Of a DNA stretch of 64,000 bases, positions 1,077 through 28,301 are shown piece after piece (position 1 is the stretch's first letter; each line of letters begins with the position of its first letter). The position numbers and the translations under genes are program-made. Under the pieces are notes generated by a model. That model did not search any database. It saw only the letters and a list, made by a program, of their open reading frames with translations, and had not been told where the DNA came from. The stretch is from Winogradskyella algicola (GTDB lineage: Bacteria; Bacteroidota; Bacteroidia; Flavobacteriales; Flavobacteriaceae). The stretch is from contig NZ_SZQF01000003.1 in the NCBI RefSeq assembly GCF_005869935.1, forward strand, positions 62,001-126,000, in the 5' to 3' direction.

Positions 1077-1104
1077 GAAGCAAGAAGTTAGAAGATTGAA
1101 GCTC
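1077..1104. repeat. Heptad array, left arm of S23 element 1 (GAAGnnn x4)
   Basis: Four consecutive 7-nt units on the plus strand read GAAGCAA, GAAGTTA, GAAGATT, GAAGCTC: a fixed GAAG and a variable triplet. The array is the inverted counterpart of 1507-1555. Bases 1084-1102 and 1537-1555 are inverted repeats of each other with 17 of 19 positions identical. Confidence 0.85.
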
Positions 1105-1124
1105 TATCTTTATGCTATATTATA

Positions 1125-1478
1125 TTATTTCACTTTATTTCTAAAAGCAATCGTCATATTCATTAAATCAAAACAATCTTTGTAAAAACCGTCAAAAACT
1201 TCTTGACTAATATAACTTCTTCGTTTTGCTTTATGCAAACAAGTTACGACTTCTGCAATTGAACGAATTGAATATCCTAAAAACTTTCTGAATTCAGCAC
1301 CAGATTGCAATATTGAACCTTCAGAAATATTCAGTGCTACTGAATCTGAAGCTCTTCGTATTTGAGATGATAAATTATAAATTTCTTTTTCAGGAAACAA
1401 CTCTGTAAGCTTATCCATATTATCACCTAAGTCCATTGCCTTTTGCCAAATTAATAAGCTTTCAAATTTAAACTTCAT
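1125..1478 (-). CDS. Four-helix-bundle protein, S23 / bAvd-like family (copy 1)
   Basis: The 117-residue protein matches the family first found in 23S rRNA intervening sequences (S23) and related to the Avd accessory protein of diversity-generating retroelements. It shows the characteristic N-terminal F-x-LLIWQKAMDL helix, the central LSSQIRRASDSVALNISEG segment (about residues 36-54) and an amphipathic C-terminal half. Only a structural role or nucleic-acid binding is known or proposed for this family; no enzymatic residues are seen. The gene is enclosed by inverted arrays of GAAGnnn heptads (1077-1104 and 1507-1555) inside an otherwise continuous minus-strand cluster, so it looks like cargo of an inserted element, not an ordinary operon member. 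The second copy, at 6131-6493, is only distantly similar. Confidence 0.88.
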   Translation of the reverse strand: MKFKFESLLIWQKAMDLGDNMDKLTELFPEKEIYNLSSQIRRASDSVALNISEGSILQSGAEFRKFLGYSIRSIAEVVTCLHKAKRRSYISQEVFDGFYKDCFDLMNMTIAFRNKVK

Positions 1479-1506
1479 GCTATTAGTCTATTTATATGTA
1501 AAATTG

Positions 1507-1555
1507 TTACTTCAAGCTTTTAACTCCGTACTTCCTGCTTCAAGCTTCCAACTTC
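1507..1555. repeat. Heptad array, right arm of S23 element 1 (GAAGnnn x7, inverted)
   Basis: Read on the minus strand, seven consecutive units are GAAGTTG, GAAGCTT, GAAGCAG, GAAGTAC, GGAGTTA, AAAGCTT, GAAGTAA. The tetramer GAAG is kept in five units and changed at one base in two, while the following triplet varies. It lies between the 411-residue protein gene and the S23-like gene, and is inverted relative to 1077-1104. Confidence 0.85.
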
Positions 1556-1558
1556 CAT

Positions 1559-2794
1559 CTATATATTGTTACTAATCGTCTCAATCACCCAATCCTGAAA
1601 GGATGCATCCCAAGTCTCATAATTTTTGTAAAACTGCTCTTTATCGTACCAGTACAAAAACAGAATATCTTTTGGTGAAATATTTACCAATAATTTATGA
1701 ATTAAATCGCGATGCTCTGCCGACAATGACGAATGTGGCTGATGTAGTGCAAAATACATGGACTGATCTACCATATCTTCAATTTTATAAGCGTTGCTGC
1801 GTTCTAATTTTTCTAAATACAACTCAACTCCCATCACTTGTTTTCGAGCTGCTATATCGATTTTATTTAAGTAGCTTTTAAAAAGCGCTTTACTATCTAA
1901 AATCTCTTTTATTGCATGTTCAGTGTCTTTAAGTTTACTGAATAATTCAAACTTTTTAATACGATCGTAATTAGGTGTTTTTACCATGTATTCTAAATCG
2001 CACTCAATGATGATATGACTTTTCAGCTTATCGACCAATTCTGGCTGACTGATATGATAAATCAACACATCGTGAATGGTATCTTTAATAGCTTCTTTAT
2101 AGGAATCCTCATTTTCGAAAACCAAAATGGTTTGAATAAAATCTCGCAACAAGTACACACCACCAAAGGCACGTGTATAAAATGAACCTGTGGTATAATG
2201 TAACGCATGAAGGTTTAAATCTCTACTTCGTAGATCTCCGTAAGTTTTTGCAGATTCTAGTAATGCGTTATGAATGTCTTCATCAATAAAGTTATTACCT
2301 GTTCTAAACTTGTCTACCAGTCGAAGTTGTTCTTTTTGTCGCTCTTCTAGGTTATCTATAAGTCTAAAGCTAATACTTACATCGTCGTATTTTAAAATGT
2401 CTAAAGGCTCATAAAATACATCTATATCCTGATCAAAATCGATGCAAATCGCTGAATCTCTGGTGATATCGTTTATTTTGCTTCCATGTGTTCTAAAGAT
2501 ATGTTGCATCATATCTCTATCAAAAGAATGAAACGGTAAATACACTGGTTTTCCTTTTTGTAAAGGTGAAATAATGATACCATGCGGATTGGCATCACCA
2601 TGATTTAGGTAATGTACATCCTTCTTTTCTTCTGCTACTTCTGGACTCCAGCCAACACCATCTATAGAAAAGGAAGTGAGTTTGGTTTCTTTAAAACCAA
2701 GTGTTTTTAAACATTTATTATAGCGCTCTACCAGTTTACCACTTACTGGTATAAGTTCGCTTCTGTATAGGTTTGCTTGTTTTAGTTTGTTCAT
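1559..2794 (-). CDS. Uncharacterised 411-residue cytoplasmic protein
   Basis: The protein begins MNKLKQANLYRSELIPVSGK and has no signal peptide or membrane helix. The first third contains the His/Asp-rich stretch HYLNHGDANPHG (about residues 62-73); the rest is mainly helical and charged. I do not recognise a characterised domain. It resembles a conserved flavobacterial family that I recall only as a domain of unknown function (possibly DUF6638, unverified). It lies 46 nt downstream of the Nudix gene and is followed by S23 element 1. Its place in a cluster with an AAA+ ATPase and a coiled-coil protein suggests a shared process, not a known enzyme. Confidence 0.75.
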   Translation of the reverse strand: MNKLKQANLYRSELIPVSGKLVERYNKCLKTLGFKETKLTSFSIDGVGWSPEVAEEKKDVHYLNHGDANPHGIIISPLQKGKPVYLPFHSFDRDMMQHIFRTHGSKINDITRDSAICIDFDQDIDVFYEPLDILKYDDVSISFRLIDNLEERQKEQLRLVDKFRTGNNFIDEDIHNALLESAKTYGDLRSRDLNLHALHYTTGSFYTRAFGGVYLLRDFIQTILVFENEDSYKEAIKDTIHDVLIYHISQPELVDKLKSHIIIECDLEYMVKTPNYDRIKKFELFSKLKDTEHAIKEILDSKALFKSYLNKIDIAARKQVMGVELYLEKLERSNAYKIEDMVDQSMYFALHQPHSSLSAEHRDLIHKLLVNISPKDILFLYWYDKEQFYKNYETWDASFQDWVIETISNNI

Positions 2795-2840
2795 AAAAGC
2801 CTATCCTAAATCCTTTCCAGAGAAAAGGACTTTTAATCGA

Positions 2841-3434
2841 TTATTGTTGTAATAGTTTTTTTATCTGCACATGTTGCAATAACAAAATCGTTTTTGCATC
2901 GATTATATCTCCATTTACCATCATCGCAATGGCTTTTGTAAATGGTATTTCTAAAATTTCTATGTCTTCATTTTCGGTATCTAAACCTCCTCCGTCATTG
3001 GTTTTCATTTTATCAGTATATTCACCAACAAAACACGAAAATCGTTCTGTACTACATCCTGGTGTGGCAAACGCACTATAAATCTCTGTTAGTTTTGGGA
3101 TGTTATATCCTGTTTCTTCAAGCAACTCTCTTCTTATGGCTTCTTCTGTAGAAGAATCATCCTTTTCTAGCATTCCAGCTGGTACTTCTAATAAAAAACC
3201 ACCTTCTACGCCATTCATATAAGCTGGTAAACGAAATTGCTTAACCAAAATAACGGTTTGCTTTTCCGTATTGTACAGCAAGGCTGCTACTGCATTACCA
3301 CGTTCTAAAACTTCCCATTTGTTTTCAACCCAATCTCCGTCTTTTAACTGATAATTGAATTTTACCTGAGATAAGGTAAAAAACTTATCTGAAAGAATGG
3401 TTCGGTTGATGTTTTTGATGCGTTTTTTAGTCAT
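2841..3434 (-). CDS. Nudix hydrolase, NudK / GDP-mannose pyrophosphatase-like
   Basis: The Nudix box is clear: GMLEKDDSSTEEAIRREL followed by LEETGY, matching Gx5Ex7REUxEExGU. The N-terminal MTKKRIKNINRTILSDKFFTL and the C-terminal DTENEDIEILEIPF are typical of the NudK subgroup, which hydrolyses nucleoside-diphosphate sugars such as GDP-mannose. I place the start at 3434 (197 residues). A longer frame to 3488 exists, but its first 18 codons lie inside the upstream gene and are unlike the family. With this start the ATG overlaps the end of the upstream membrane-protein gene by 8 nt (ATGACTAA), suggesting translational coupling. The substrate is inferred from the family. Confidence 0.88.
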   Translation of the reverse strand: MTKKRIKNINRTILSDKFFTLSQVKFNYQLKDGDWVENKWEVLERGNAVAALLYNTEKQTVILVKQFRLPAYMNGVEGGFLLEVPAGMLEKDDSSTEEAIRRELLEETGYNIPKLTEIYSAFATPGCSTERFSCFVGEYTDKMKTNDGGGLDTENEDIEILEIPFTKAIAMMVNGDIIDAKTILLLQHVQIKKLLQQ

Positions 3435-4071
3435 AAACAAAAGTTTCTTCTTGTTTTGACACCTTAAGGCTATATTCCTTCCATTCACTCATAGAAATAG
3501 GCAATAATTTTCTTGATTTTGAAAAATCAATAGCTTTCAAAATATCATCTCGCATATGATTATACTTATGCTTTGAAAATATTTTTTTCTCATATAATTT
3601 GTATATGGAATCAATGAAAAATGTAGCTTTTTCTCTCTTCAAAGAGTTATTAAATACTTCATATTCATCTTTTCTAATCAATCTACCATAAGACATTGGG
3701 TTAAACAAAACTCTAAAGTAAAAATTAGGCCTCTTATCAAATTTACTCCACTCTATACCAACACAGATTATATAACCTCTAATGTTACCTACCAGTTCAC
3801 TATCTTTCATAATAAACCCTTTTCTTCTGAAGTTACTAAAAGGACTAGAGTTAATCTTTTTCTTTATCCAAAAAGGTTTATAATACTCCTCAATAATATA
3901 ATCTTTAGTTGAAAAAAATAAAACTCCTAATACGAAGAATAAGCTTATATATTTTATGGATAGATACTCTTCCTCTGTCTTAGCTGAAATTGAAATAATA
4001 GAAATTAAAATCAGTAAAAAGACAAATGAAAACAAATAGTATTCTTTAAATATGTACCAAGCTTTTTTCAA
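3427..4071 (-). CDS. Small membrane-anchored protein of unknown function
   Basis: The 214-residue protein has two hydrophobic segments near the N-terminus (about residues 12-29 and 40-55), followed by a basic, aromatic-rich soluble part (about 65-214). No recognised motif. The gene is visibly more A/T-rich and Lys/Phe/Ile/Tyr-rich than the flanking ATPase and Nudix genes. It starts 3 nt after the AAA+ gene ends and overlaps the Nudix start by 8 nt, so it must be co-translated with them. The membrane anchor beside the ATPase suggests a docking or output role for the cluster, which is inference. Confidence 0.72.
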   Translation of the reverse strand: MKKAWYIFKEYYLFSFVFLLILISIISISAKTEEEYLSIKYISLFFVLGVLFFSTKDYIIEEYYKPFWIKKKINSSPFSNFRRKGFIMKDSELVGNIRGYIICVGIEWSKFDKRPNFYFRVLFNPMSYGRLIRKDEYEVFNNSLKREKATFFIDSIYKLYEKKIFSKHKYNHMRDDILKAIDFSKSRKLLPISMSEWKEYSLKVSKQEETFVYD

Positions 4072-4074
4072 AAA

Positions 4075-6036
4075 TTATTCTTGTTTTCCAAAACGCTCTC
4101 TAGCTTCCGTTTCGATGTTTAACTGATTGATTCTGGCATCAACTTTACGTTTAAAGTCGGTATCTGCAATCGTTGCTACATTATCTAAATAACGTACCAC
4201 TTCTTGTCGCCTAATGTCGCTAAAATCGAGACCTTTCATATTGGCTCGCATCAGTTCTTGAAGCATACCAAACTTGGTGTCGTAATCTTTTTTGAAATAC
4301 ACTTCAGGATTGTTGAACCAATCCTCTTCTAAATCGAAATCCGTTAAACGTAACGACACGGCTTTTTGAATGTTTCGCACATCACGCGAAGAGAAAAATG
4401 GAAATATCTTCTGTATTTCTGTATATAAATGCGCATAGAACATATGCTCATTGTCTTTGTATTTGCTCGATACTTTATCGAACGTATCCGACACACGCTC
4501 TTCGGTTGGCTTATCTATTTTTTCTAAGATGTCGCCTAAATTTTTAGCTACTTTTTGTGCATCGAGATACTTATAATCGTTAGGATTGCTCATGTTTATG
4601 AAATCTGGCATGGTATCTTCGAGCTTTTTCCACCAGAGATAATCCTGATCTACAAAGTCCTTTTCATTACGTGCTCCATCAATTTTAAAACGACCTTGTA
4701 CACGCGAAATCACAGCCTTATCCAGCATTTCTGGTAAGTTGGTAAATAAACCTATTGAGCTGTTACCATAATTAACTGCATAAGCACCTTCGGTATATCT
4801 TAAAAATACACCAATCACTTCCTTAACACCAGCGGACACACCTTGCGTTGTACGCTCTTGTAGGTTATTCTCTGCATCATCTATTGGTGCAAAAATGAGA
4901 CGTGTTGGGTCTTGCAAAGGTTTCATCCACTCCACCATTTTCTCTGCAGAACCACCTTGAAATGTTGAAATCAACGTATCTGGCATTGGATGAAATAAAA
5001 ATGGAATATTTAAGTTTTCGCTATGCTCTTTTAATCGTGTTGCAATAGCAGCGATGAGCATACTTTTTCCTGTACCTGGAATTCCATAACCCATAAATAC
5101 TGGCATAAAACCACCTAGCTCTTGAAATGGATTCTTTTTTGCTTCAAAATCGTAGCTTAATAATCGTTCTGTTAATCTTCTGGCAAAGTGCTTAGCATCT
5201 TTGTTGCCTACAATTTGTTCAAACTGAATTTTATTAAACTCTACACTTACAGCTGTTCCTGCAAAAACATTGTTCCAGCCATCAATTACAAAGTCTGAGT
5301 TTTCTAGCTTATACGAACGGTCTTCAATCGTATCAGTATATTCTAATGTGCTTTTTCTGAGTTGAATTTCATCAATAAGGGCTTCAAAATAAACCACCGT
5401 AAAATCAATAACATCTTTGTCGGTTTTGATAATGTCTGGATGTCCTAAGTACTTATCATAGTAGAATAATTGACACGAAATTCCTTTTAAAGGCGATAAA
5501 AACGACACTTCAGGGATGCCTGCAAACTTCTGTTTCATTACCGATAAATCGTCGGATGCATGTGGTTTTAAATCGTTTAGAATTTTATAGGCAGTAGCAA
5601 ATAGCATAAAGGCTGTTGCTGTAAGCATTTTGCTTTCGTACTCACGCTTTCCGGAGTTATCTAAAGCCGATTTGTTTTCACTTAACGTCGATAATCCCGA
5701 GGCATCATAGTAACTATCTTTAATCCAAATACCAAGTGTAATGCCTTCTTGTACAGCAAATAATGTTTGATTAAGAAACAACGGAATTGCAACCGACTCT
5801 GGTAATAATTTCTTTTTTAAAGCTAAAATAGTTTTAGAAACTGAGGTTACAGACACATTACTGCCATTATTAGCTCGTGATAGATACAACAAAATGGATT
5901 CGTCCTTACCATCATTATCTCTATTTTTGGCGCGCTGACTTTGCTCCCACTGAATAGACTTTAGGTAAGACGTTGCTTCGTCTCGAAGCATATTGAGTTC
6001 ATTTTGTTTTATAGGAAAAGTTGAGTTGTGTTGCAT
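4075..6036 (-). CDS. AAA+ ATPase, uncharacterised family
   Basis: The 653-residue protein has an N-terminal helical domain of about 300 residues, then an AAA+ core. Walker A is GYGIPGTGKS at about 316-325. The probable Walker B is RLIFAPIDDAEN (about 379-390), where the usual DE pair is replaced by DD, so hydrolysis may be slowed or depend on another acid. VISRVQGRF (near 445) could supply the sensor or arginine finger, and the C-terminal 180 residues are helical. I do not recognise a characterised subfamily. It is the largest member of the 1-9020 cluster, with a membrane protein 3 nt downstream and S23 element 2 upstream. A remodelling ATPase working on the coiled-coil protein of 7680-9020 is a reasonable hypothesis. 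Confidence 0.85.
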   Translation of the reverse strand: MQHNSTFPIKQNELNMLRDEATSYLKSIQWEQSQRAKNRDNDGKDESILLYLSRANNGSNVSVTSVSKTILALKKKLLPESVAIPLFLNQTLFAVQEGITLGIWIKDSYYDASGLSTLSENKSALDNSGKREYESKMLTATAFMLFATAYKILNDLKPHASDDLSVMKQKFAGIPEVSFLSPLKGISCQLFYYDKYLGHPDIIKTDKDVIDFTVVYFEALIDEIQLRKSTLEYTDTIEDRSYKLENSDFVIDGWNNVFAGTAVSVEFNKIQFEQIVGNKDAKHFARRLTERLLSYDFEAKKNPFQELGGFMPVFMGYGIPGTGKSMLIAAIATRLKEHSENLNIPFLFHPMPDTLISTFQGGSAEKMVEWMKPLQDPTRLIFAPIDDAENNLQERTTQGVSAGVKEVIGVFLRYTEGAYAVNYGNSSIGLFTNLPEMLDKAVISRVQGRFKIDGARNEKDFVDQDYLWWKKLEDTMPDFINMSNPNDYKYLDAQKVAKNLGDILEKIDKPTEERVSDTFDKVSSKYKDNEHMFYAHLYTEIQKIFPFFSSRDVRNIQKAVSLRLTDFDLEEDWFNNPEVYFKKDYDTKFGMLQELMRANMKGLDFSDIRRQEVVRYLDNVATIADTDFKRKVDARINQLNIETEARERFGKQE

Positions 6037-6048
6037 GGTTATAGTTTT

Positions 6049-6104
6049 CAGTAGGCAATTTTCAGTAGGCAGTCTTCAGTAGACAGTCTTCAGTAGGCAG
6101 TTTT
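6049..6104. repeat. Heptad array, left arm of S23 element 2 (CAGTnnn x8)
   Basis: Eight consecutive 7-nt units on the plus strand: CAGTAGG, CAATTTT, CAGTAGG, CAGTCTT, CAGTAGA, CAGTCTT, CAGTAGG, CAGTTTT. The tetramer CAGT is fixed in seven of eight and the triplet varies, with an apparent 14-nt higher-order period. It lies in the gap between the S23-like gene and the AAA+ gene. Confidence 0.9.
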
Positions 6105-6130
6105 AGACATCGTGACTTATTTTTTAGTTT

Positions 6131-6493
6131 TTATAATCCAAATTTACTAGGATTGTTCATCATATAATTAATCAGTTTTCCAACTTCTTGACTTTTGTTC
6201 ATTAGCTCGTTATACTTATTCTTTTCAATGTAAGCGCAAGCTAAAGCAAATTCCAGCCATAATTGAGTTTCGGAATTTTCACTATCAGCATCAGACATTT
6301 TACTTTTAAAATGCTTTTCATATTGACGTTTACGATAACCTTCAGAAATATTAGAGCATACAGACCTACTAGACCTAATTATTTGAGAGGTTAATCCAAA
6401 CATTTCAATTTTTGGAAAACTCTTAGCTAAATGGAAAATTTCCATTGCCAAATCAAATCCTTTTTGATATGCTAGTAAAGTTTTAAAAGACAT
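6131..6493 (-). CDS. Four-helix-bundle protein, S23 / bAvd-like family (copy 2)
   Basis: The 120-residue protein carries the family core LTSQIIRSSRSVCSNISEG (about residues 35-53), preceded by the helix KTLLAYQKGFDLAMEIFHLA and followed by two amphipathic helices. It shares the SxQIxRxSxSVxxNISEG core with the copy at 1125-1478 but little else, so the two are not a recent duplication. Like copy 1 it sits inside the minus-strand cluster between inverted heptad arrays (6049-6104 and 6512-6546), but here the fixed tetramer is CAGT, not GAAG. Known members have no catalytic activity; nucleic-acid binding through a basic barrel is proposed for the related Avd protein. Confidence 0.88.
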   Translation of the reverse strand: MSFKTLLAYQKGFDLAMEIFHLAKSFPKIEMFGLTSQIIRSSRSVCSNISEGYRKRQYEKHFKSKMSDADSENSETQLWLEFALACAYIEKNKYNELMNKSQEVGKLINYMMNNPSKFGL

Positions 6494-6511
6494 TTTTTAT
6501 CTTCATTTATT

Positions 6512-6546
6512 CCTACTGCCTTCTGCAGACTGCAGACTGTAGACTA
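6512..6546. repeat. Heptad array, right arm of S23 element 2 (CAGTnnn x5, inverted)
   Basis: Read on the minus strand, the units are TAGTCTA, CAGTCTG, CAGTCTG, CAGAAGG, CAGTAGG. They use the same tetramer as the left arm at 6049-6104 in inverted orientation. The array ends 10 nt before the stop codon of the 6556-7602 gene. Confidence 0.85.
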
Positions 6547-6555
6547 TTTACTTAT

Positions 6556-7602
6556 TTATTTTTTAATTTTTAAATCAGAAACCTGAACTGGCGGAATTGC
6601 CAACTTATTCATAATTTCTGGTGTTTTGTTATATAGTAATTGTATGATGCGATGTGGTGCAAAAACATAACGCTGTCTAAACGGACTTGCCCACTTCTGA
6701 AAGGTTTGCTTGCTAAAAAAACTACCTTCCTTAAATTCACTTTTAGAGACAAGTTCATCTACTTTAAATGAAACTACAAATGATTCTAAGGGTATATCTT
6801 TCTTAGCAATACCTTGCAAAATGGCGTGAGTTATTTCGTTTTCATCTTTTGCAAACACATTATGAATTGGACCTAAATCAATACGCTTTATGAGCTTTGG
6901 TAATACCTTTGGTAATCGCTTGTCTATAGCGTAGGCCATGGTGTCTAAATTCATCTCACGATCTGATGTATTCTTTAAAACAGAATAAATCTCATCTTTG
7001 TATGAATTAACATCTCTCCCATCGTAATTAAAATACATGTAGCAAACAAAAGGTCTGTTGTGCGTTACATCATAAAAACCCCAGCTTACCAAATGCTCAG
7101 CAGGTGAGCCTTGTGGTGCAGCAATAATCTTACCTTGTACAAAACGATTAAATATATACTCTTTTTTGGCAGATGTGTAATAAACAATAGATGCAGCTTG
7201 AAATAATTTGCGTTTAGAAATCGGTTCTTTCTTTCGCATTAAAGTATCTAGAAATTCATCTTTTAGAATATCAATATCTGTGAGTTTGGTTAAAAACTCT
7301 TCACGCAATTCTAAATCATTAAAGAGATATCTAAATTCTAAATAATTTGGAAAACTAGAATCTGTAAGATCTACCTTCATGTTTTCCTCATCGTCATACA
7401 TGTACTTTACACGCATGGCTTCAATAGAATACAACAATAAATCTGTGTACTGCTTAAACAGCAATATTTCTTGTTGATTAAGTATTTGCTTAGCCTGTAC
7501 AGCTGTAATTAGTTCTTTGAGTGTAAAATCTATCATTTTGTGATAGAACACATACTGCTCTTTAGAATCTAATACTGCGGAATCTAAGGGTGTTACAATC
7601 AT
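6556..7602 (-). CDS. Uncharacterised 348-residue protein of the AAA+ cluster
   Basis: A soluble protein without signal peptide or membrane helix, beginning MIVTPLDSAVLDSKEQYVFY. The first 130 residues look helical. The middle contains the motif-like FVCYMYFNYDGRDVNSYKDE (about 181-200), and the C-terminus is basic. I recognise no catalytic motif. It lies between the coiled-coil protein gene and S23 element 2, and probably belongs to the same transcript. A TTG or ATG start nearer the heptad element is not available, so the ATG at 7602 is kept. Confidence 0.75.
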   Translation of the reverse strand: MIVTPLDSAVLDSKEQYVFYHKMIDFTLKELITAVQAKQILNQQEILLFKQYTDLLLYSIEAMRVKYMYDDEENMKVDLTDSSFPNYLEFRYLFNDLELREEFLTKLTDIDILKDEFLDTLMRKKEPISKRKLFQAASIVYYTSAKKEYIFNRFVQGKIIAAPQGSPAEHLVSWGFYDVTHNRPFVCYMYFNYDGRDVNSYKDEIYSVLKNTSDREMNLDTMAYAIDKRLPKVLPKLIKRIDLGPIHNVFAKDENEITHAILQGIAKKDIPLESFVVSFKVDELVSKSEFKEGSFFSKQTFQKWASPFRQRYVFAPHRIIQLLYNKTPEIMNKLAIPPVQVSDLKIKK

Positions 7603-7606
7603 GGTT

Positions 7607-7676
7607 TAGTTTTCAGTTTACAGTAACAGTATTCAGTTAACTAACAACTGTGACTGAATACTGTTACTGATGACTA
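7607..7676. repeat. Empty heptad element: inverted CAGTnnn arrays with a perfect 17-bp stem
   Basis: The left arm reads TAGTTTT, CAGTTTA, CAGTAA, CAGTATT, CAGTTAA (7607-7640). The right arm, read on the minus strand, is TAGTCAT, CAGTAA, CAGTATT, CAGTCA, CAGTTGT (7676 down to 7644). Bases 7621-7637 and 7653-7669 are a perfect 17-bp inverted repeat with a 15-nt loop. Both arms share a shortened 6-nt unit CAGTAA. The element fills the gap between two genes of the AAA+ cluster and carries no gene. It uses the same fixed tetramer as S23 element 2. Confidence 0.88.
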
Positions 7677-7679
7677 GAT

Positions 7680-9020: not shown

Positions 9021-9184
9021 CTTGTATCGTGTTATTTAGTTGAACAATTTTTAGGATAACAATTTCGGTAATTTTTTAAGACTATAAAAACTTTACCGTC
9101 AAATAATAGGTAGTTAATGTCACAAAAATGTTACAAATTTTAGTTATTGCTAATTGTTGAATATCTTTAAAAAAATAAACATCT

Positions 9185-9955: not shown

Positions 9956-9979
9956 TAGTATTTAAATGTTAAATTTTTG

Positions 9980-10386: not shown

Positions 10387-10410
10387 AACCACTAAGACAC
10401 AGATAAACAA

Positions 10411-10437: not shown

Positions 10438-10460
10438 TATAAAAAATTATTAGTGAGTAT

Positions 10461-17977: not shown

Positions 17978-18991
<1,014 letters not shown>

Positions 18992-19978: not shown

Positions 19979-20113
19979 ATCTATCTTATTGAATACAGTA
20001 AAATTAATAAACAATAGATGGAATAATGTGACTATTGTCATAAAAAAATGTTACGAAAATCAATTCAAACGTTTTCGTTAATAAGTATTTTAATAAATTT
20101 TAAAAAAGTGAAG

Positions 20114-23100
20114 TTAAGACTTAGATTTTGTCTTCTTTTTCTTCATAGACATGTATTCTGGCATAAGGTCATCGTCATCGTTTTTATCTTCTTTTTCTTC
20201 CTTATTCCCATCTTTATCTTTACGATTTTTACCAGAAAAAATAATATTGAGCAGCTCCTTGAAAGTATCGAATTCTACACTATAAGACATACCGATACCT
20301 TGAGTATAACCAATCTCTTCGCCAAAGTTTCTTATAGTGTTTTCTCTATTGAATACTTTGGCTCTTAACGTACCGTCTTCATTGAGCAACCAATCTATTT
20401 GAACATCTCCAGTAATAGTGGTTTGTTGCGCACTGCCGAAAGGCACACCAACTTTACCATTTACTAATACTTTTTCTGAAATCTTTGTTTGTAACGTTAC
20501 TCCAACAGAATTATTAGTTTGCAAATCTGGTGTGTCCTGACCAATTTCTGCAACTATCCCTATATCTAAATTATCGTTATTATCGCCTAAAATATTATTT
20601 AAAATACCTGTTAATCGTTCAGATAAAGTTCCTGTTATATCTAATCCACCTGTTGTTGTTGTAAAACCACCTGTACCAAGTAATGTAAGGGCTTGATTGT
20701 TTCTTATATCTTTTGAAGATAATCTATAGTCTAACTCTGACTTTACGGTTGAGGATACATTAGGAAAGCGTAAATCGAAATCTGGTTGCGGCTGTTCTAA
20801 ATCACCTGTTAAATAAATATCTACCTCAACAGGTATTCTTTGAGAAATAGGATTATCTAACAATACAGAAGGGTTTGCTTTGGTCTTATAGATGGCTTTT
20901 AAATTTATTTCTGCTCCCATAGGGTCACCCTCCCAAACTATAGTTCCGCCTTGCTCAACCTCAAACTTTTTCTCTACCAAACCACCATACTTAAAGTTAT
21001 AAACACCCTCATAAACCGTAAAATCTCCCCACATATTAAATGTTCCGTTGGTGTTGATGAAAAACCCTAAGAAACCTCTTCCTTTTCCTTTTATTGTACT
21101 GCCTGCTTCTTTATCTATAACTATTTCTATAGTAGCATCTTCAGTAACATCTAAATCGAAATTAAGCTCCAAGCCTTTTACCTCGATAGCCTCTGTGACT
21201 TCGCCGTTAAGTCTAGCTTTCTTTTCTTCTGGACTTAAAAAATGAATGAAAGAGTTATCGCCAAAACTCTCAGAATCATTCAACGGAATATTAAAAACTG
21301 TTCCAGAGGCTGTACTCCCCTCCACATCTATAATCAACTGGTCAGTTGGTCCACTAATACTAGCTTCCCCAGACACAAAGGCAGTTCCATAATATAATTC
21401 GTCCTCGGACTCTTCAGTATTTAAAACCAACAAACGGTCTGTGCTCAAGTCTAAACCGAGTTCCCAATCAGAAAAATTATTATGCTGAATAAAACCGTTT
21501 AAGTACCCTTGTGAGAAGTACTTAGAATCTGTCATAGCCACATTATTAAAAATAAACTGTTGATTACGCAAGGATACTTTAGAATCAAAATCAAACCCGT
21601 AATCTACATTGAGATATGGAATAGACAGACCCGCTCTATCTAACAAAAGTTCTCCGTCAATACTTGGTTTGTTAAGGCTTCCTGTTACGCTAGCTTCACC
21701 AGAAACCAAACCTCTTATATTACTAATAACGCCTTCACCAAGTGGGTTAAGCGGATCTAATAAAAATTCTTCGAAAGTAACGTCGAGATCTATTGTTGAT
21801 CTTCGCTCTGCGACATCAATACTACCTTTTGCCAAAAAGGATGTAAGATTATCATTAACCAAAGAAACATCTACCTCATAATTGGTAATAGAGTTATTAC
21901 CTTCTATAGCTGCGGTTAAATTACCTAAATCATAATCATTAACAAACAGGTTACTGATTTCTAAGTTAGATTTTGGCAGATAAGTACCACTTTTCAGAAT
22001 GAGATCTAGCTTTCCGTTTACAACGCCTGCTAAATCCAAGCTATCTATCCGTGGAGTTATTTTTACCAATTCTACATCTTTAAAATCAACCCTTAGATTT
22101 TTATTGATACTATCACTAATTATTCCTGAAACCTCGATAATTTCATTACCTTGATTAATAGTAATCGGAAAAATATCAAAAGCAGATAGTGTTCTATCAA
22201 ATCTTACTTTATTGAAATTGTTTTTCTCTGAATTTATAAACCATTCGTAACCTTTAAATACTACATCAGATTTTCTAAAACCAACAACCGATTTGTTTGC
22301 TTCATCTATGGTGTAAAAAAGATTTAGATTAAATTCATCTTTATTGTTTTTGCCGCCTTTAAATTCGGTTTTTACTAAAAGTGTATCACGCTTTGTAACA
22401 TTTATTAATGTGAAGTCTGATGCATTATAAACACCTGCGCTAAGTGTATCTATTTCAATAAAGGTATTATATAGTGGGTTACTGTTATCTACATTGAGGT
22501 TGATATTATTAGCAAAATAATCTTTAAACTTAATTTCTGGAGAATTAAAAGTAAGCTCAAATCCTTTTGCATCTGTTTCAATTCTACCTTCTATAAAGGT
22601 GTTTTTACCCAAAAATAAGTCCCTAAAAAAGACAGCTGCAATCTTGGAATAAATATTAAACCTAAAATCGATATACTGACCTTCTTCAACCTCAAAAGGC
22701 ACGTAATTGGTATAAATACTTCCAACTGAATTTTCAACCAATTTAAAAATATCTTCAGTCTTAAATTTACCTTTGATTTTACCGTTTATGATATCTGGTG
22801 AGTTTATAGCTATGGTACGTTCATCACCTTCAAAGGATGAAACTATATCAAAATCTTCAAATCTGTATCTACTATCCTGATTTTTGTATGTCGTATTTTT
22901 GATGTTTATTGCACCTGTTACATCATCAAAAGTAGATCCTGTTGCCGTCATACTTACAATACCTCTAAATTCTGAAATACTGTCTCTTGTTATAAAATTA
23001 AGTACTCTTAGATTGGCATAACCGACATTGGCGTTAAAGTCAAACTTCTTTTTTTCGTCCACAAAATCAACTAATCCATTAAAATCTAGTTGAAGGTTTG

Positions 23101-24517
23101 GATCATCAGCAACGAGATTACCGTTAAAAATCTTATTACCCAAATCACCAGAAACCTTAATACCATTATACTTGTAACCATTATATTCTAGACTAAAGAC
23201 ATCACCAGTTATATCTGAACGTAAATTATCTAGTGTAAAACCTTTACCATCTACATCGAGATCTGCTGACACAAATTTGGCTTTAGGGTCGTTAATTAGC
23301 TTACCGATGTCAAACTCATCAAAAACAATATTTCCTATGTAACTTGCTCTGTCAATATCATCAATTTCCGTGAGCTCTAAATCAGATTTCACAAAACCTA
23401 AATCTGTATCAATTGCTATGGCTGCATTTATGCGCTTTGTTGTTATTTGTGATGTTCCTGTAATTTTAAAATTACCAACTTTAGACAAAACCGTTGGGAT
23501 TGCATTACCAAGAATTCTTGGCAGTAAGGCTGTTAAATCGTTATAGTTTGATGCTAGATTTTTAAAATCGCCGTCCAAGGCAAAACTATCGTCTTCTTTG
23601 GTAAATAAATTTTTAAATGTGATGTCACCAATAATTCTGGTATTTCTTGTGGTACTTACATTTAAGTTTTTGGCTTCAAGATTATTTAAAGTACCTGATA
23701 AATCTGCATTGAAACTTGCGCGTTGATTAACACCAAATTCATCAAAAAAAACGTTTAATTCTGTTAACGATATTTCAGAATCTTTAAAACTGGCTGTAAC
23801 GTTTACCTTATCCGTAAAGTCTTTTAGGTCTTCGCGTTTGTAATCAAATCTTAAATCACCTTTTAATTCAGACTTTTCAGTTTCAATACTCAAATCAGCA
23901 AAATTCATGTGGTCTAAGGTGTATTCAAAATTAGATTTTAGGTTCTCTACTGTAATACCTCTGCTATCCTTAAAACTGAATTTATTAATGCGCGAACTCA
24001 CATCGGGACCATTTATTAAAAAATTGGTTGTATTGGCATTAAGCTCTGTAAATTCAAAAATCCTTGGTGTTTCAAGATTTTCATCTGTTAATTTAAAAAT
24101 GCCATTTTCTATAGATAAATCGCTTGACGAAAACAAGAAACTACTTGGTCCTTCTCGTGGGTTATCGTCTTCAAACTTATCTACAAAAACATCGAGATTT
24201 GTATCTTCTTCACCTTCATACGTTTTTAGATTAAATACTAAATCTTGAATATCTATATCACCTAGATTAAATTTACTATTGTATAGGTTTTTGAAACTTA
24301 TAATAGAGCTATTTAACTCACCAATGCTTATAAGTGTGTCTTTTTTATAATCTCTAATTAGAATTTCTTTTAACTCTATATCTCCATTAAGTTGAAGACC
24401 AACTTTACCAATATTAATATTGGTTTTAAATTCTTCGTTAACTTTTTGCGTAGCGTATTTACCGAGTTTGGTTTGAACGGCAGGAATACCCAGAATTAAA
24501 AACACAATAAGGAACAA
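20114..24517 (-). CDS. tamB: TamB-like translocation and assembly module protein
   Basis: A 1467-residue protein with an N-terminal membrane helix, a very long beta-rich repeat region predicted to form a hydrophobic groove (AsmA/TamB type), and the conserved TamB C-terminal domain (about residues 1050-1430, including GFLGFFINTNGTFNMWGDFTVYEG and GGLVEKKFEVEQGG). TamB-like proteins bridge the inner and outer membranes and support lipid transport and outer-membrane biogenesis. The gene has no ATG: codon 1 used here is TTG inside the membrane helix. The open frame continues upstream for 21 codons (to 24580) before an in-frame TAA at 24581-24583, and includes LKIIGKIAGIILL, which looks like true protein. 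The real start is therefore uncertain. Confidence 0.88.
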   Translation of the reverse strand: MFLIVFLILGIPAVQTKLGKYATQKVNEEFKTNINIGKVGLQLNGDIELKEILIRDYKKDTLISIGELNSSIISFKNLYNSKFNLGDIDIQDLVFNLKTYEGEEDTNLDVFVDKFEDDNPREGPSSFLFSSSDLSIENGIFKLTDENLETPRIFEFTELNANTTNFLINGPDVSSRINKFSFKDSRGITVENLKSNFEYTLDHMNFADLSIETEKSELKGDLRFDYKREDLKDFTDKVNVTASFKDSEISLTELNVFFDEFGVNQRASFNADLSGTLNNLEAKNLNVSTTRNTRIIGDITFKNLFTKEDDSFALDGDFKNLASNYNDLTALLPRILGNAIPTVLSKVGNFKITGTSQITTKRINAAIAIDTDLGFVKSDLELTEIDDIDRASYIGNIVFDEFDIGKLINDPKAKFVSADLDVDGKGFTLDNLRSDITGDVFSLEYNGYKYNGIKVSGDLGNKIFNGNLVADDPNLQLDFNGLVDFVDEKKKFDFNANVGYANLRVLNFITRDSISEFRGIVSMTATGSTFDDVTGAINIKNTTYKNQDSRYRFEDFDIVSSFEGDERTIAINSPDIINGKIKGKFKTEDIFKLVENSVGSIYTNYVPFEVEEGQYIDFRFNIYSKIAAVFFRDLFLGKNTFIEGRIETDAKGFELTFNSPEIKFKDYFANNINLNVDNSNPLYNTFIEIDTLSAGVYNASDFTLINVTKRDTLLVKTEFKGGKNNKDEFNLNLFYTIDEANKSVVGFRKSDVVFKGYEWFINSEKNNFNKVRFDRTLSAFDIFPITINQGNEIIEVSGIISDSINKNLRVDFKDVELVKITPRIDSLDLAGVVNGKLDLILKSGTYLPKSNLEISNLFVNDYDLGNLTAAIEGNNSITNYEVDVSLVNDNLTSFLAKGSIDVAERRSTIDLDVTFEEFLLDPLNPLGEGVISNIRGLVSGEASVTGSLNKPSIDGELLLDRAGLSIPYLNVDYGFDFDSKVSLRNQQFIFNNVAMTDSKYFSQGYLNGFIQHNNFSDWELGLDLSTDRLLVLNTEESEDELYYGTAFVSGEASISGPTDQLIIDVEGSTASGTVFNIPLNDSESFGDNSFIHFLSPEEKKARLNGEVTEAIEVKGLELNFDLDVTEDATIEIVIDKEAGSTIKGKGRGFLGFFINTNGTFNMWGDFTVYEGVYNFKYGGLVEKKFEVEQGGTIVWEGDPMGAEINLKAIYKTKANPSVLLDNPISQRIPVEVDIYLTGDLEQPQPDFDLRFPNVSSTVKSELDYRLSSKDIRNNQALTLLGTGGFTTTTGGLDITGTLSERLTGILNNILGDNNDNLDIGIVAEIGQDTPDLQTNNSVGVTLQTKISEKVLVNGKVGVPFGSAQQTTITGDVQIDWLLNEDGTLRAKVFNRENTIRNFGEEIGYTQGIGMSYSVEFDTFKELLNIIFSGKNRKDKDGNKEEKEDKNDDDDLMPEYMSMKKKKTKSKS

Positions 24518-24603
24518 GAGCAGAATAATACCTGCTATTTTCCCTATTATTTTGAGTACTCTTTTGATACGGATTAATAATTACTTGTTGATGAAATCTT
24601 CAC

Positions 24604-24611
24604 TACATTTG
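24604..24611 (+). promoter_or_regulatory. Predicted -7 element of tsaD
   Basis: TACATTTG matches TAnnTTTG exactly. TTG triplets at 24585-24590 lie 13-16 nt upstream, somewhat closer than usual for a -33 element. The tsaD ATG is 77 nt downstream. Confidence 0.5.
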
Positions 24612-24687
24612 CAACTGTAATACGCTGGCAAGTGGAGTCTTAGACTATATTCCGTAAAATTAACAATTATTGTGCCCTTTTTAGTTA

Positions 24688-25710
24688 ATGAAAAAAGAAA
24701 ATATTTATATCCTTGGTATTGAATCATCATGTGATGATACGTCTGCTGCTGTACTATGTAACGATACTATTTTAAGCAATGTTGTGGCTGACCAAAAAAT
24801 ACATGCCGAATATGGTGGAGTTGTGCCAGAATTAGCCTCTAGAGCACACCAGCAAAACATTGTTCCGGTAGTGAATCAGGCCATTGAGCGCGCTGGTATT
24901 TCTAAAGAACAGTTAAGTGCTATTGCCTTTACACGCGGACCAGGTTTAATGGGCTCTTTGCTCGTTGGCACCTCTTTTGCAAAGTCTCTGGCTTTTGGTT
25001 TAAATATCCCTCTCATTGATGTTAACCACATGCAAGCGCATATTTTAGCGCATTTTATTGAAGAAGAAGGACACCATAAACCACCTTTTCCATTTTTGGC
25101 GATGACCATCTCTGGTGGTCATACACAAATAGTAAAAGTTACTAAGTATTTTGAAATGGAAGTCCTTGGCGAAACCATTGATGATGCTGTTGGTGAGGCC
25201 TACGATAAAAGTGGTAAAATTTTAGGACTAGGCTATCCTGCTGGTCCAGAAATAGACAAGCGTGCACAATTAGGAAACCCTAAAGCTTATAAATTTACCA
25301 AACCCAAAGTAGATGGACTTAATTTTAGTTTCTCTGGTTTAAAAACAGCCATTCTGTACTTTGTACAGCGTGAAACTAAAGCCAATCCCAATTTTGTTGA
25401 AGAAAACCTTAATGACATCTGTGCTTCTATTCAATATACAATTGTTGGCATTTTAATGGATAAACTGAAACTTGCCGTAATGCAAACTGGCATTAAACAC
25501 ATTGCTATTGGTGGTGGAGTTTCAGCAAATTCTGGCATTAGAAAAGCTCTTAAAGATGCTGAAAAGAAACATGGCTGGACCACTTACATCCCTAAGTTTG
25601 AATATACCACAGACAATGCTGCTATGATTGCCATTGTTGGATATTTAAAGTATTTAGAAAAAGACTTTTCAGATTTTGATGTTATGGCTACTGCTAGATT
25701 GAAGATATAA
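24688..25710 (+). CDS. tsaD: tRNA N6-adenosine threonylcarbamoyltransferase TsaD
   Basis: Transfers the threonylcarbamoyl group to A37 of ANN-decoding tRNAs, together with TsaB/TsaE (not in the window). The 340-residue protein has the ASKHA start ILGIESSCDDTSAAV (8-22), the metal-binding HMQAH (114-118), GGGVSANSGIR (C-terminal third) and the final DNAAMIAIVGY. Full family length. It is transcribed divergently from tamB from a promoter with a consensus -7 element, and is followed by the PpiC/rsmE genes. Confidence 0.97.
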   Translation: MKKENIYILGIESSCDDTSAAVLCNDTILSNVVADQKIHAEYGGVVPELASRAHQQNIVPVVNQAIERAGISKEQLSAIAFTRGPGLMGSLLVGTSFAKSLAFGLNIPLIDVNHMQAHILAHFIEEEGHHKPPFPFLAMTISGGHTQIVKVTKYFEMEVLGETIDDAVGEAYDKSGKILGLGYPAGPEIDKRAQLGNPKAYKFTKPKVDGLNFSFSGLKTAILYFVQRETKANPNFVEENLNDICASIQYTIVGILMDKLKLAVMQTGIKHIAIGGGVSANSGIRKALKDAEKKHGWTTYIPKFEYTTDNAAMIAIVGYLKYLEKDFSDFDVMATARLKI

Positions 25711-25813
25711 ATTGTTAAAACATCTGTTGATAACAGATAGTGTAGAGCTTTAAATACATTTTAAAATTTAGTTGTTTTGTAAATACCCCAAATTAAACGA
25801 AATCAATTACACA

Positions 25814-26443
25814 ATGAAACAACTATTTTTTCTACTCTTCTGTATTCCCTTTTTAAGTTTTTCTCAAGACGCTTTAGAAACCGAACTCGATTCTATTAAT
25901 TCTATCGAAGAGGCTAAAACCTTTGCTAAAGCTCACAAAAAATCTAATAAAAGTAAGGTCTTTACATTTAATAAAGAAAAGCATAAAACACGCTTGGCAG
26001 ATGAGCTTTTTAAGCTTTCTAAAGGTGGAAAAAAAGTTGTAAAAGGTGAATACAAAAAGACCTACTACAAAGTTATTGAGAAAGAAAAAACCTTGCACTA
26101 TAGAGCTAGTTATATATTTTTTGATGGTAGTAAAATGAGCTTAGAAGACATCAACGAAAAGCGTGATAAAATTATCTCTCAATACCAACAAGGTTATAAA
26201 TTTAATAAGTTAGCACAATTAAACTCTATGGATTTAAATGCCAAAAGAGGTGGTGATTTAGGTTGGTTTCCCGAAGGACAAATGCACCAAATGTTTGAAG
26301 ACGCTGTAAAAAACCATAATACTAATGAAATTTTTACTTTAGACATTGAAGATAGAAACTGGTATTACGTTGTTCTTAAAACGCACGACTCTAAAACCAT
26401 TGAAGAAATTATTGTTTTACAATACTCAGAAGCTACAGATTAA
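25814..26443 (+). CDS. PpiC-type peptidyl-prolyl isomerase, secreted
   Basis: A secreted parvulin-like protein. The start at 25814 gives a clean signal peptide, MKQLFFLLFCIPFLSFSQ, ending in the usual SQ of flavobacteria; a frame starting at 25772 would add 14 residues before it. The parvulin domain covers about residues 85-195 of the mature form and has the typical RGGDLGWFPEGQMHQMFEDA. It probably helps outer-membrane or periplasmic protein folding. The stop overlaps the rsmE start by one base (TAATG), so the two are translationally coupled. Confidence 0.9.
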   Translation: MKQLFFLLFCIPFLSFSQDALETELDSINSIEEAKTFAKAHKKSNKSKVFTFNKEKHKTRLADELFKLSKGGKKVVKGEYKKTYYKVIEKEKTLHYRASYIFFDGSKMSLEDINEKRDKIISQYQQGYKFNKLAQLNSMDLNAKRGGDLGWFPEGQMHQMFEDAVKNHNTNEIFTLDIEDRNWYYVVLKTHDSKTIEEIIVLQYSEATD

Positions 26444-27147
26444 TGCAATTATTCTACAATCCTAATATTTCAGAAGGAGACACTACGTTTAATTTTGACA
26501 AAGATGAAAGCCGACACATCGTAAAAGTGCTTCGTAAAAAAATTGGAGATCAATTACACATAACCAATGGTAAGGGTTGGTTATTTACTGCAGAACTTAC
26601 ATTGTCAGATGCTAAACATTGTTCGGTAAATATCTTATCACAAAGTCTACAACCGAAACGTCCTTTTAATTTGCACCTTGCTGTTGCACCAACTAAAATG
26701 AACGACAGATACGAGTGGTTTTTAGAAAAAGCAACAGAAATTGGTATTGAAGAAATTACACCAATCATCTGTGATAACAGCGAGCGTAAAGTTGTAAAGC
26801 TAGAACGATTTGAAAAGATCCTACAGTCTGCCATGAAACAATCTTTGCAATGCTATTTACCAAAACTAAATGAACCAGTATCTTACAAAGATTTTGTAGA
26901 CACTTCTTTTTCCGTAACAAAGTTTATTGCGCATTGTGAAGAAACCGATAAAAAATCTTTAAAGTCTCAGTTAAAAAATAATGACGATACTTTAATACTT
27001 ATTGGGCCTGAAGGTGATTTTAGCGTTAAAGAAATCGAAATGGCTTTGGCTGCTGATTTTATTCCTGTAACCCTAGGAAATACAAGGCTCAGAACAGAAA
27101 CTGCAGCAATAGTATCATGCAGTTTAGTTAATTTTTTGAACACTTGA
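26443..27147 (+). CDS. rsmE: 16S rRNA (uracil(1498)-N(3))-methyltransferase
   Basis: Methylates U1498 in the 30S subunit using SAM. The 234-residue protein has an N-terminal PUA-like part (DESRHIVKVLRKKIGDQLHI) and a C-terminal SPOUT knot: LILIGPEGDFSVKEIE and TLGNTRLRTETAAI. Family length is normal. It is coupled to the upstream PpiC gene and followed by a hairpin terminator at 27284-27318. Confidence 0.95.
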   Translation: MQLFYNPNISEGDTTFNFDKDESRHIVKVLRKKIGDQLHITNGKGWLFTAELTLSDAKHCSVNILSQSLQPKRPFNLHLAVAPTKMNDRYEWFLEKATEIGIEEITPIICDNSERKVVKLERFEKILQSAMKQSLQCYLPKLNEPVSYKDFVDTSFSVTKFIAHCEETDKKSLKSQLKNNDDTLILIGPEGDFSVKEIEMALAADFIPVTLGNTRLRTETAAIVSCSLVNFLNT

Positions 27148-27283
27148 TCAATCTATTAATTACCAACTTATCAATAATCATATTAACAAAAAACTCAACT
27201 TATTAACAGTCAGATTGTTGAAGGCTTGTTGAAATTGAAAATTCAAATTTATAGGATAATATAATTTTTTAACAAATCTTTGT

Positions 27284-27318
27284 AAAAGAGAAAGACCTCA
27301 AACAACTTTTCTCTTTTT
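27284..27318 (+). terminator. Terminator of rsmE
   Basis: AAAAGAGAAA and TTTCTCTTTT pair across a 13-nt loop and end in a T-run. It lies 137 nt after the rsmE stop. Confidence 0.65.
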
Positions 27319-27540
27319 GTATTAGAGCCAAGTTAATTATAAGGCCTTTTTCTATCTCTATAAAACCTCTTCTTTTGTATTGAAGAGGTTTTCTTTTGAA
27401 CAAAATTAAAAATCTTCTTTTGAATATTTAAGAAATATTCATTCAAGTTTTTCACATCCACCTTTATTAACAAACACTTTAATCTGAGAATTGATTATCA
27501 CAATTATTGTTAAGTGATAAAAATTCCACAATTTCTTTAT

Positions 27541-27548
27541 TACATTTG
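27541..27548 (+). promoter_or_regulatory. Predicted -7 element of the DUF4159 gene
   Basis: TACATTTG, identical to the -7 elements proposed for tsaD and the tRNA cluster, lies 22 nt before the start codon. No convincing -33 TTG is seen at the right spacing. The hairpin at 27495-27520 lies immediately upstream. Confidence 0.5.
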
Positions 27549-27570
27549 AATTATAATAATCATTAATTAA

Positions 27571-28215
27571 ATGAAGGGTATTTTTCTCTTTCTATTTTTA
27601 TTATTCACAGGTATTAGCGCTTTCCCTCAAGATATAGCTGTATTAAAGTATAAAGGTGGTGGCGATTGGTATAGCAATCCTACAGCTCTACCCAATTTGG
27701 TAAAGTTCTGTAACGATAATATTGACACTAATATCAATGAAAACATACAAACTGTAGAAGTTGGTAGTACAGACATTTTTCAGTATCCATTTTTACATAT
27801 GACAGGTCATGGCAATGTGTTCTTTAGTGAAGATGATGCCGAAAACTTAAGAAAATATCTCATTTCTGGTGGTTTTCTTCATATTGATGATAACTATGGT
27901 ATGGAGCCATACATTACCAAAGAACTAAAAAAAGTTTTTCCTAATAACGAATTAAAGGAAATCCCTAAAAATCATGAAATATTCAGTTCTGCTTTTGAAT
28001 TCCCAAACGGCTTACCAAAAATCCATGAGCATGATGGTAAAGCATCGCAAGCCTTTGGTATTTTTCATGAAGATAGATTAGTTTTACTCTTCACCTTTGA
28101 AAGTGATTTAGGTGACGGCTGGGAAGACCCAGAAGTACATAATGATCCTGAAGATGTGCGTGAAAAAGCACTCAAAATGGGAGCTAATATCTTGAAATAT
28201 GCTTTTGAAAATTAG
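27571..28215 (+). CDS. DUF4159 domain protein, secreted
   Basis: The 214-residue protein has a signal peptide (MKGIFLFLFLLFTGISAFPQ), followed by the DUF4159 domain: LKYKGGGDWYSNPTALPNLV, FLHMTGHGNVFFSEDDAENL and SGGFLHIDDNYGM. This domain has a glutamine-amidotransferase-like fold; its role is unknown. The stop codon TAG (28213-28215) forms the first bases of the heptad element that fills the gap to the next gene. Confidence 0.85.
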   Translation: MKGIFLFLFLLFTGISAFPQDIAVLKYKGGGDWYSNPTALPNLVKFCNDNIDTNINENIQTVEVGSTDIFQYPFLHMTGHGNVFFSEDDAENLRKYLISGGFLHIDDNYGMEPYITKELKKVFPNNELKEIPKNHEIFSSAFEFPNGLPKIHEHDGKASQAFGIFHEDRLVLLFTFESDLGDGWEDPEVHNDPEDVREKALKMGANILKYAFEN

Positions 28216-28301
28216 AAATGAGATAATAGACTCTAGATATGAGACTTGTTTATTTTGAAAAACAAAATTTCTCTTATCTCAAGTCTAACTTCTAAAATCT
28301 A
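28213..28301. repeat. Empty heptad element: inverted KAGAnnn arrays
   Basis: The left arm (28213-28247) is TAGAAAT, GAGATAA, TAGACTC, TAGATAT, GAGACTT. The right arm, read on the minus strand (28301 down to 28267), is TAGATTT, TAGAAGT, TAGACTT, GAGATAA, GAGAAAT. All ten units have T/G-AGA followed by a variable triplet. The arms are inverted and in register, separated by a 19-nt loop. The element fills the space between the DUF4159 stop and the next start (28305) and carries no gene. Confidence 0.88.

Follow-up and report, generated by a model that had tools for sequence, protein, structure and literature searches.

S23 genes between inverted arrays of short repeat units: a widespread and probably propagating family of small bacterial elements

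Why should two small genes of the S23 family, in protein operons of Winogradskyella algicola, each lie between inverted runs of seven-nucleotide units, and why should two further gaps nearby hold such runs with no gene between them? The question is raised by a window of 64,000 nucleotides (positions 62,001 to 126,000 of contig NZ_SZQF01000003.1; coordinates below count from its first letter), in which four intergenic loci, here called elements A to D, share this architecture. We think it probable that they belong to a widespread family of propagating elements, inserted between genes of the same direction, in which the inverted arrays on either side of an S23 gene have about five units of 7 or 8 nt each, and which includes arms-only derivatives; the presumably pentameric S23 protein, whose binding to the arrays and role in movement we infer, would read about five repeats at each end.

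Four inverted arrays in the window

Each of the four loci was fitted with a joint two-arm model, in which periods of 5 to 11 were compared, and was set against 300 shuffles. Period 7 had the top score at A, B, C and D, and at none of them did any of the 300 shuffles equal the observed array score, which bears out the inverted period-7 arrays that an initial annotation of this DNA had described. The parts of the elements are as follows (arms from the joint fit, genes from the profiles named).

1509..1557, minus strand: upstream arm of element A, 7 heptads, core GAAG
1125..1478, minus strand: S23 gene of element A, 117 aa (PF05635 and TIGR02436 profiles)
1075..1102, minus strand: downstream arm of element A, 4 heptads, complement of GAAG
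6512..6546, minus strand: upstream arm of element B, 5 heptads, core CAGT
6131..6493, minus strand: S23 gene of element B, 120 aa (PF05635 and bAvd PF22296 profiles)
6042..6104, minus strand: downstream arm of element B, 9 heptads, complement of CAGT
7640..7679, minus strand: upstream arm of element C (no gene), 6 heptads, core CAGT
7604..7637, minus strand: downstream arm of element C (no gene), 5 heptads
28214..28248, plus strand: upstream arm of element D (no gene), 5 heptads, core AGA
28266..28300, plus strand: downstream arm of element D (no gene), 5 heptads

The joint fit reached an array score (BF) of 43.9 for A, 60.8 for B, 27.4 for C, with period 6 close behind at 26.2, and 32.1 for D. 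The unit counts first given (4/7, 8/5, 5/5 and 5/5) are correct for A and D and one too low in one arm of B and one arm of C, and what had been called a constant tetramer is indeed a locus-specific core, though one of three to five conserved positions and not strictly four. The division into two loci with an S23 gene and two without is unchanged. Both proteins match PF05635 (A: E-value 8.6e-29, 100.3 bits; B: 3e-32, 111.4 bits; curated cut-off 33.8) as well as TIGR02436 (98.4 and 105.5 bits; cut-off 24). Of the pair only the protein of B passes the cut-off of bAvd PF22296, such that the label S23/bAvd-type fits both genes in its first half and B alone in its second.

The elements are tightly packed against their neighbors. 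The upstream arm of A begins 1 nt past the stop codon of a DUF6638 gene (1559-2794). C and D, in which the arms are separated by a short linker only, fill their gaps from stop to start codon: C occupies all of 7603-7679, and at D the TAG stop of a DUF4159 gene overlaps the first unit of the upstream arm, while the downstream arm stops 4 nt short of the next start codon. All four sit in protein operons, and the only Rfam matches in the window are three tRNAs, which form a consecutive run of genes at 39085-39348.

Arrays beside S23 genes in the genus, the phylum and beyond

S23 genes are common in these bacteria. They are present in 51 of 60 genomes of the genus, with 0 to 16 copies each, and a phylum sample gave a match in 193 of 247 genomes, in 183 of them above the family cut-off. 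For 108 loci from the genus and the phylum, one model was fitted jointly to 150 nt upstream of the gene and the reverse complement of 150 nt downstream, with BF 20 as the threshold; L062 (no S23 frame by profile), a second S23 match at L008 (22-nt flank) and L212 (no downstream flank) were excluded. The loci are not independent, since the 157 fitted S23 genes make up 65 groups by flank homology, which were built by single linkage and may chain unlike sites. Inverted arrays scored above BF 20 at 91 of the 108 loci, compared with 3.0% of 400 shuffles, and the 12 shuffles in question came from L101 (7), L052 (4) and L113 (1). The genome of the window has 11 S23 genes; by eye all are flanked by arrays, each with its own core, and 10 passed the joint fit, the exception being L004 with a score of 13.0.

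Among the 91 passing loci the period is 7 in 60, 8 in 28 and 9 in 3; the 7-nt period seen at first in the window is thus true of its four loci, but periods 8 and 9 occur at S23 loci in general. The modal number of units is five, both in the upstream arm (38 of 91) and in the downstream arm (29 of 91), whereas shuffles favor one and three. Both arms have at least three units at 80 of the passing loci and at least four at 72. Where both arms were clear when fitted singly, their periods agreed in 40 of 42 cases (29 at 7/7 and 11 at 8/8). A model built from the upstream arm scored its own downstream arm higher in inverted than in direct orientation at 70 of 77 loci, and on that arm it beat, on average, 91% of other loci. 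The constraint on columns is uneven (mean z 3.5, above 2 in 95 of the 134 S23 loci with at least eight units). On the sense strand, conserved core columns hold G far more often than C (199 versus 59), and cores contain AG at 113 of 156 loci versus CT at 23 of 157. The distance from the end of the upstream arm to the S23 start has a median of 21 nt and stays within 75 nt at 89 of 91 loci.

S23 genes run in the same direction as both neighbors at 103 of the 108 loci and at 67 of 80 loci from the wider scan described below (170 of 188 in total), and opposite to both at one locus in each set; in a genome sample, 275 of 400 adjacent gene pairs were co-directional. This orientation is compatible with expression from the host operon or with an RNA step, and does not distinguish the two. 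At some sites the arrays enter coding sequence: at L001, L033 and L035 the downstream arm extends into the following gene and there encodes the N-terminus of the protein (MSKASNRSNKSN...), presumably a pseudouridine-synthase-like one, and at L036, L048, L051, L058 and L060 the first codons of another gene appear, by eye, to be GTTG-type units.

How specific are the arrays to S23? The genome of the window and nine relatives contributed 724 gaps without an S23 neighborhood, 1.26 Mb altogether, which were judged by a single-arm criterion. An array was present in nine of them (shuffles, none) and in 80 of 216 S23 flanks, an odds ratio of 47 (p 2e-46), in a comparison that drew its flanks from genus and phylum and its gaps from the genus only, with gaps that could exceed the flank length. 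Within the genome of the window alone, arrays stood at 6 of 11 S23 loci and in 4 of 289 gaps (p 1e-7). The proposal that these loci form one family, with S23 strongly enriched inside, is thereby borne out. Arms-only arrays were too few for their density to be compared, with 1 in 218 gaps of S23-free genomes, 4 in 217 of S23-rich ones and 4 in 289 of the genome of the window. A strict scan for arms-only inverted pairs in 344 gaps gave four above BF 16 and none after shuffling; it recovered element D and three others that are weak or oddly arranged, and missed element C.

A scan by protein pattern gave at least 582 confirmed stretches, from which the best 80 were taken as named loci, 79 of them with both flanks. 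Here an array had to reach BF 20 and to beat eight shuffles of its own locus, as it did at 71 of 79 loci (47 of 50 from Bacteroidota and 24 of 29 from elsewhere). Both arms had at least three units at 56 of the 79, namely at 43 of the 47 passing loci from Bacteroidota and at 13 of the 24 passing others. These 13 carry the labels Acidobacteria, Chloroflexi, Planctomycetota, Poribacteria, Nitrospirae, SAR324, Lambdaproteobacteria, Desulfobacteraceae and an unplaced bacterium, and passing loci with one clear arm only are labeled Fibrobacter, Wolfebacteria, Roizmanbacteria, Parcubacteria and a Methanophagales archaeon. Outside Bacteroidota no qualifying array was found at five loci, which come from Poribacteria (two), Anaerolineae, Doudnabacteria and another member of Patescibacteria (one each). 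Of 12 plasmid loci that were fitted (ten cyanobacterial, one from Azospirillum and one from Gemmatirosa), 11 scored higher in the inverted fit than 40 shuffles, the exception being L191. The phage records scanned for S23 gave no match, and Rfam found nothing, and no rRNA, at 20 S23 loci from outside Bacteroidota. When the class of the genome with L270 was searched for GGGAATC arrays like those of Xanthomonas, 2 of 395 genomes had matches; we take these two to be Bacteroidota from a BatA-like neighbor, and therefore doubt the label Limnohabitans of L270. Those two genomes have 8 and 7 S23 matches, with GGGAATC/GGGATTC heptads at L330, L331 and L332, and at L330 the array stands directly before the start codon.

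Turnover of the elements and their link to the protein

If these were fixed features of the gaps, relatives should keep them. In the gap of locus A, next to the DUF6638 gene, 30 loci could be read: 17 have a conserved sequence of 34-42 nt, five an S23 element and eight other insertions. A different intergenic repeat, an inverted pair of the GTCATTCCGC...GCGGAATCC type, occurs in this gap at L168, L175, L177 and L184. The gap of locus B ranges, over 30 loci, from 11 nt to full S23 elements (nine of 30), with an arms-only CAGT form at L132, while L139 is unreadable there. At locus C the gap holds empty elements of CAGT, AAGTA or GTTG type that differ by species. At locus D (30 loci) the AGA element is found in the genome of the window and four relatives; elsewhere there is an ACTAATT array (G028), GATT-type arrays in three, or 18 nt in one. 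Core types at these gaps were assigned by eye. Gain, loss and core exchange are thus seen across the four gaps, which agrees with the earlier suggestion of a propagating element, and the arms-only forms, like C and D themselves, confirm that a non-coding version exists. As in transposons and miniature inverted-repeat transposable elements (MITEs), there are inverted termini together with presence and absence at orthologous sites; the ends of the elements merge with flanking stop and start codons. The DUF4159-gene gap, which is the site of element D, has at L285, L286, L292, L295 and L299 small open reading frames with a common leader-like start and a variable end, possibly a family of small secreted peptides.

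Protein and array change together. At non-homologous sites, array similarity is about 0.15 for S23 proteins below 50% identity, 0.24 at 55-60%, 0.36 at 60-65% and 0.59 above 70%. Wherever a pair exceeds 65% identity, which is so in 24 cases, its two loci have the same period. The GGTGA core of L059 recurs at another site in L052, L096, L101 and L107, and the CAGT core is common to L008, L006 and L129. On a tree of 157 proteins the period changes 11 times, compared with 41 for shuffled labels. The S23 gene itself is under purifying selection (median dN/dS 0.20 for 256 non-independent same-site pairs). In 45 disjoint same-site pairs, core columns had diverged at 160 of 1710 positions and variable columns at 300 of 1449, a contrast that is biased by the choice of the core from one member of each pair.

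The S23 protein of element B is predicted by AlphaFold2 to be a four-helix bundle (pLDDT 97.4), and its best structural matches, 2gsc and 2rld, are S23 relatives with five chains each; a Xanthomonas S23p structure is likewise cited as a homopentameric torus (PMC4990558). The agreement between five subunits and some five units in an arm hints that each subunit may take up one unit. S23 would then be a homopentameric ring in which each subunit recognizes the short core of one unit, so that one ring could be engaged by about five regularly spaced units in each arm. Both the core and the spacing of units (7 or 8) would vary with the lineage of the protein, and the inverted order would present the same type of strand, usually one with AG, at both ends of the element. 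Core binding would serve propagation, in which RNA or single-stranded DNA is the most likely substrate and host enzymes would do the cutting and joining; that the upstream arm controls the S23 message would probably be a side effect. A comparable principle, one spaced motif per subunit, is known from TRAP, a ring that binds 11 spaced RNA triplets. TRAP is an unrelated protein and offers an analogy only, and S23 elements differ from its sites in having about five units and inverted arms.

Several observations weigh against this reading. Seventeen of the 108 genus and phylum loci and 8 of the 79 named loci fall below the threshold, and only the 13 of 24 passing loci from outside Bacteroidota have at least three units in both arms, none of them from Patescibacteria. 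The direct orientation scores higher than the inverted one at 11 of the 108 loci (six of these among the 91), with one tie in addition, at 7 of the 79 named loci and at 3 of the 12 plasmid loci (L191, L336 and L340); in all three sets taken together the direct cases often have long arrays. L044, L046, L082, L191 and L336 are exceptional in having long arrays of the same orientation on both sides. Five is the mode and not the rule, with up to 21 units per arm, and spacings of 7 and of 8 nt for one kind of ring need explaining. The link between protein and array has exceptions: the proteins of L196 and L198 are 73.5% identical at an array similarity of 0.12, and L256 differs from three relatives with close proteins (0.16-0.18). 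With one locus per site group, the 11 period changes face 15.9 in shuffled data (minimum 11), which is a weak signal. In a test for specificity residues no column exceeded the permutation maximum, and the tendency of candidate residues to lie together near one bundle end is of borderline significance (1 of 100 permutations; rank test p 0.14). Furthermore, arms-only arrays are not clearly scarcer in genomes that lack S23 (1 of 218 gaps versus 8 of 506), and those in the genome of the window match its own S23 cores no better than foreign ones (p 0.36, for four arrays only).

Known systems and competing explanations

The closest relative is the intervening sequence (IVS) of 23S rRNA. Like IVSs of the Coxiella, Leptospira and Salmonella type, the elements have a sense S23 reading frame between inverted termini and a sporadic distribution, and the window loci show, as IVSs do, either an S23 frame or none between inverted terminal repeats. 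They differ in lying in protein operons and not in an rRNA helix, in arms that are not complementary in register, and in the existence of arms-only copies. A locus on a plasmid of Azospirillum lipoferum, L339, joins the two: its S23 gene lies within a 23S rRNA gene (RF02541, 2540 bits), and its arms have 5 and 5 heptads with the core CAGANGA (BF 45.3, where the highest of 40 shuffles reached 13.6, once the upstream stretch had been delimited by hand; the automatic fit gave only 19.6, because the start codon it chose falls inside the array). These arms pair almost perfectly across 30 bp (-59.7 kcal/mol). The IVS of Coxiella is described as having three to four GACAGAT-type heptamers before its S23p reading frame and a 28-bp terminal stem (PMC4990558). 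L339 and the published Coxiella heptamers and stem indicate that the classical IVS has the same architecture, in line with the kinship proposed at the outset; the IVS would be the rRNA-resident branch of the family.

Heptad repeats have also been reported separately. In Xanthomonas and Nostoc, GGGAATC and GGGGAYT heptamers have conserved and free positions and come most often in four units; two Xanthomonas genomes have 70 and 75 convergent pairs, mostly between aligned reading frames, just past stops on the coding strand and just ahead of starts on the other, while Nostoc has few inverted pairs (PMC4692102). They share with our arrays the conserved and free positions and the preference for such gaps, but were published as G-quadruplex formers, and most cores here are not G-rich. 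TAACTGA heptads, reported from Beggiatoaceae, Cyanobacteria and five Bacteroidetes among others, are likewise intergenic but are direct repeats of one sequence (PMC4679880). S23 does not occur in the main text of either report (PMC4692102; PMC4679880), and among the matches listed in open-licence literature we found no link between S23 genes and heptad arrays outside rRNA. In two strains of Flavobacterium columnare, a four-helix-bundle gene between those for guanylate kinase and nicotinate nucleotide adenylyltransferase has been listed as a phage element (PMC5524665); it may belong to the same family.

The tie to diversity-generating retroelements suggested in the initial annotation consists in a fold shared with their Avd protein (4dwl, TM 0.79 on query, E 0.012) and a weak profile match, and in these two only: the S23 protein of B passes the bAvd PF22296 cut-off, while the NCBIfam Avd score is 32 against a cut-off of 80 bits. 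A Pfam scan of nine window proteins showed no reverse transcriptase, and no genome-wide search for one was made. Short inverted gap repeats of the MITE and repetitive extragenic palindrome (REP) type may rely on a protein from fuller copies. The elements resemble them in their short inverted repeats in gaps and their arms-only copies, and differ in that each end is an array of short units whose core varies by locus. S23 shows no transposase or other further domain in Pfam, and no search for a helper in trans was made.

Could the arms instead act as a stem in RNA? On this account RNase III would cut the mRNA stem, with the effect of excising the S23 message or of dividing the operon, and S23 would be incidental. 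Pairing was assessed at the 64 loci that exceed BF 20 and have 4 to 9 units in each arm; at least two columns are variable in 58 of these. Arms of one locus pair far better with each other than with foreign arms (-25.6 versus -11.0 kcal/mol, better in 64 of 64), the empty elements C and D fold at z -5.8 and -3.9, the rRNA copy L339 has its near-perfect stem, and excision of the Coxiella IVS by RNase III is published (PMC4990558). However, the preference for own arms comes from the core alone: the variable triplets show no complementarity in register (mean z -0.03 +/- 0.15, 58 loci), and permuting the order of units leaves the duplex energy equal (-25.30 observed, -25.24 permuted, 64 loci). The triplets speak against a full stem under selection, and the arms look like repeated recognition sites instead. 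The earlier idea that such a stem lets the insertion be cut out of mRNA is thus not supported in the form of a stem selected for RNase III cutting, whereas pairing over the constant bases, claimed with it, stands. A stem would also leave the constant 7- or 8-nt period and the five or so units unexplained, and we regard RNA processing as an unlikely account of the arrays.

A purely autoregulatory role, in which S23 controls its own translation by binding the upstream array of its 5′ leader while the downstream array acts as a competing strand and the arms confer no mobility, would suit the short distance from the upstream arm to the start codon and the excess of G and AG in sense-strand cores. 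Such a leader would lead one to expect neither arms-only elements nor different cores at one gap across species, and we hold it to be quite improbable. Slippage in neutral gaps, with S23 genes simply tolerating the arrays, would account for long arrays (L088, L101), near-perfect ones (L041, L336) and the variable unit number; it is very hard to reconcile with the roughly 47-fold odds beside S23, the inverted order at most loci, the equal period of both arms, the uneven constraint by column, the lower divergence of core columns (subject to the bias noted above) and the co-inheritance of array and protein, and we give it hardly any credence.

The reading that we prefer is thus a family of small elements which propagate with S23. 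S23 genes between inverted arrays with gene-specific cores point to a widespread small mobile element, and the anatomy, the unit number, the co-direction, the gain and loss at gaps, the co-inheritance of protein and array and the five-chain relatives are observed. More tentatively, S23 might be the specificity factor of mobile elements that span phyla, its pentamer reading about five core words per end while core and spacing drift with the protein, and such elements might be the common source of the IVSs of 23S rRNA and of the heptamer repeats of Xanthomonas, Nostoc and Bacteroidetes. Each part had been known on its own: S23 from rRNA IVSs, heptamers from a single IVS, and heptamer repeats from Xanthomonas, Nostoc and Beggiatoaceae. 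S23 proteins and rRNA IVSs have been without a known function for decades, and in 2016 the functionality and origin of IVSs were still called unclear (PMC4990558). If S23 does read the arrays that adjoin it, most S23 genes would carry their own predicted binding sequence, the function, specificity and mobility of the family would become testable, and the separate reports of heptamer repeats would be given one common cause.

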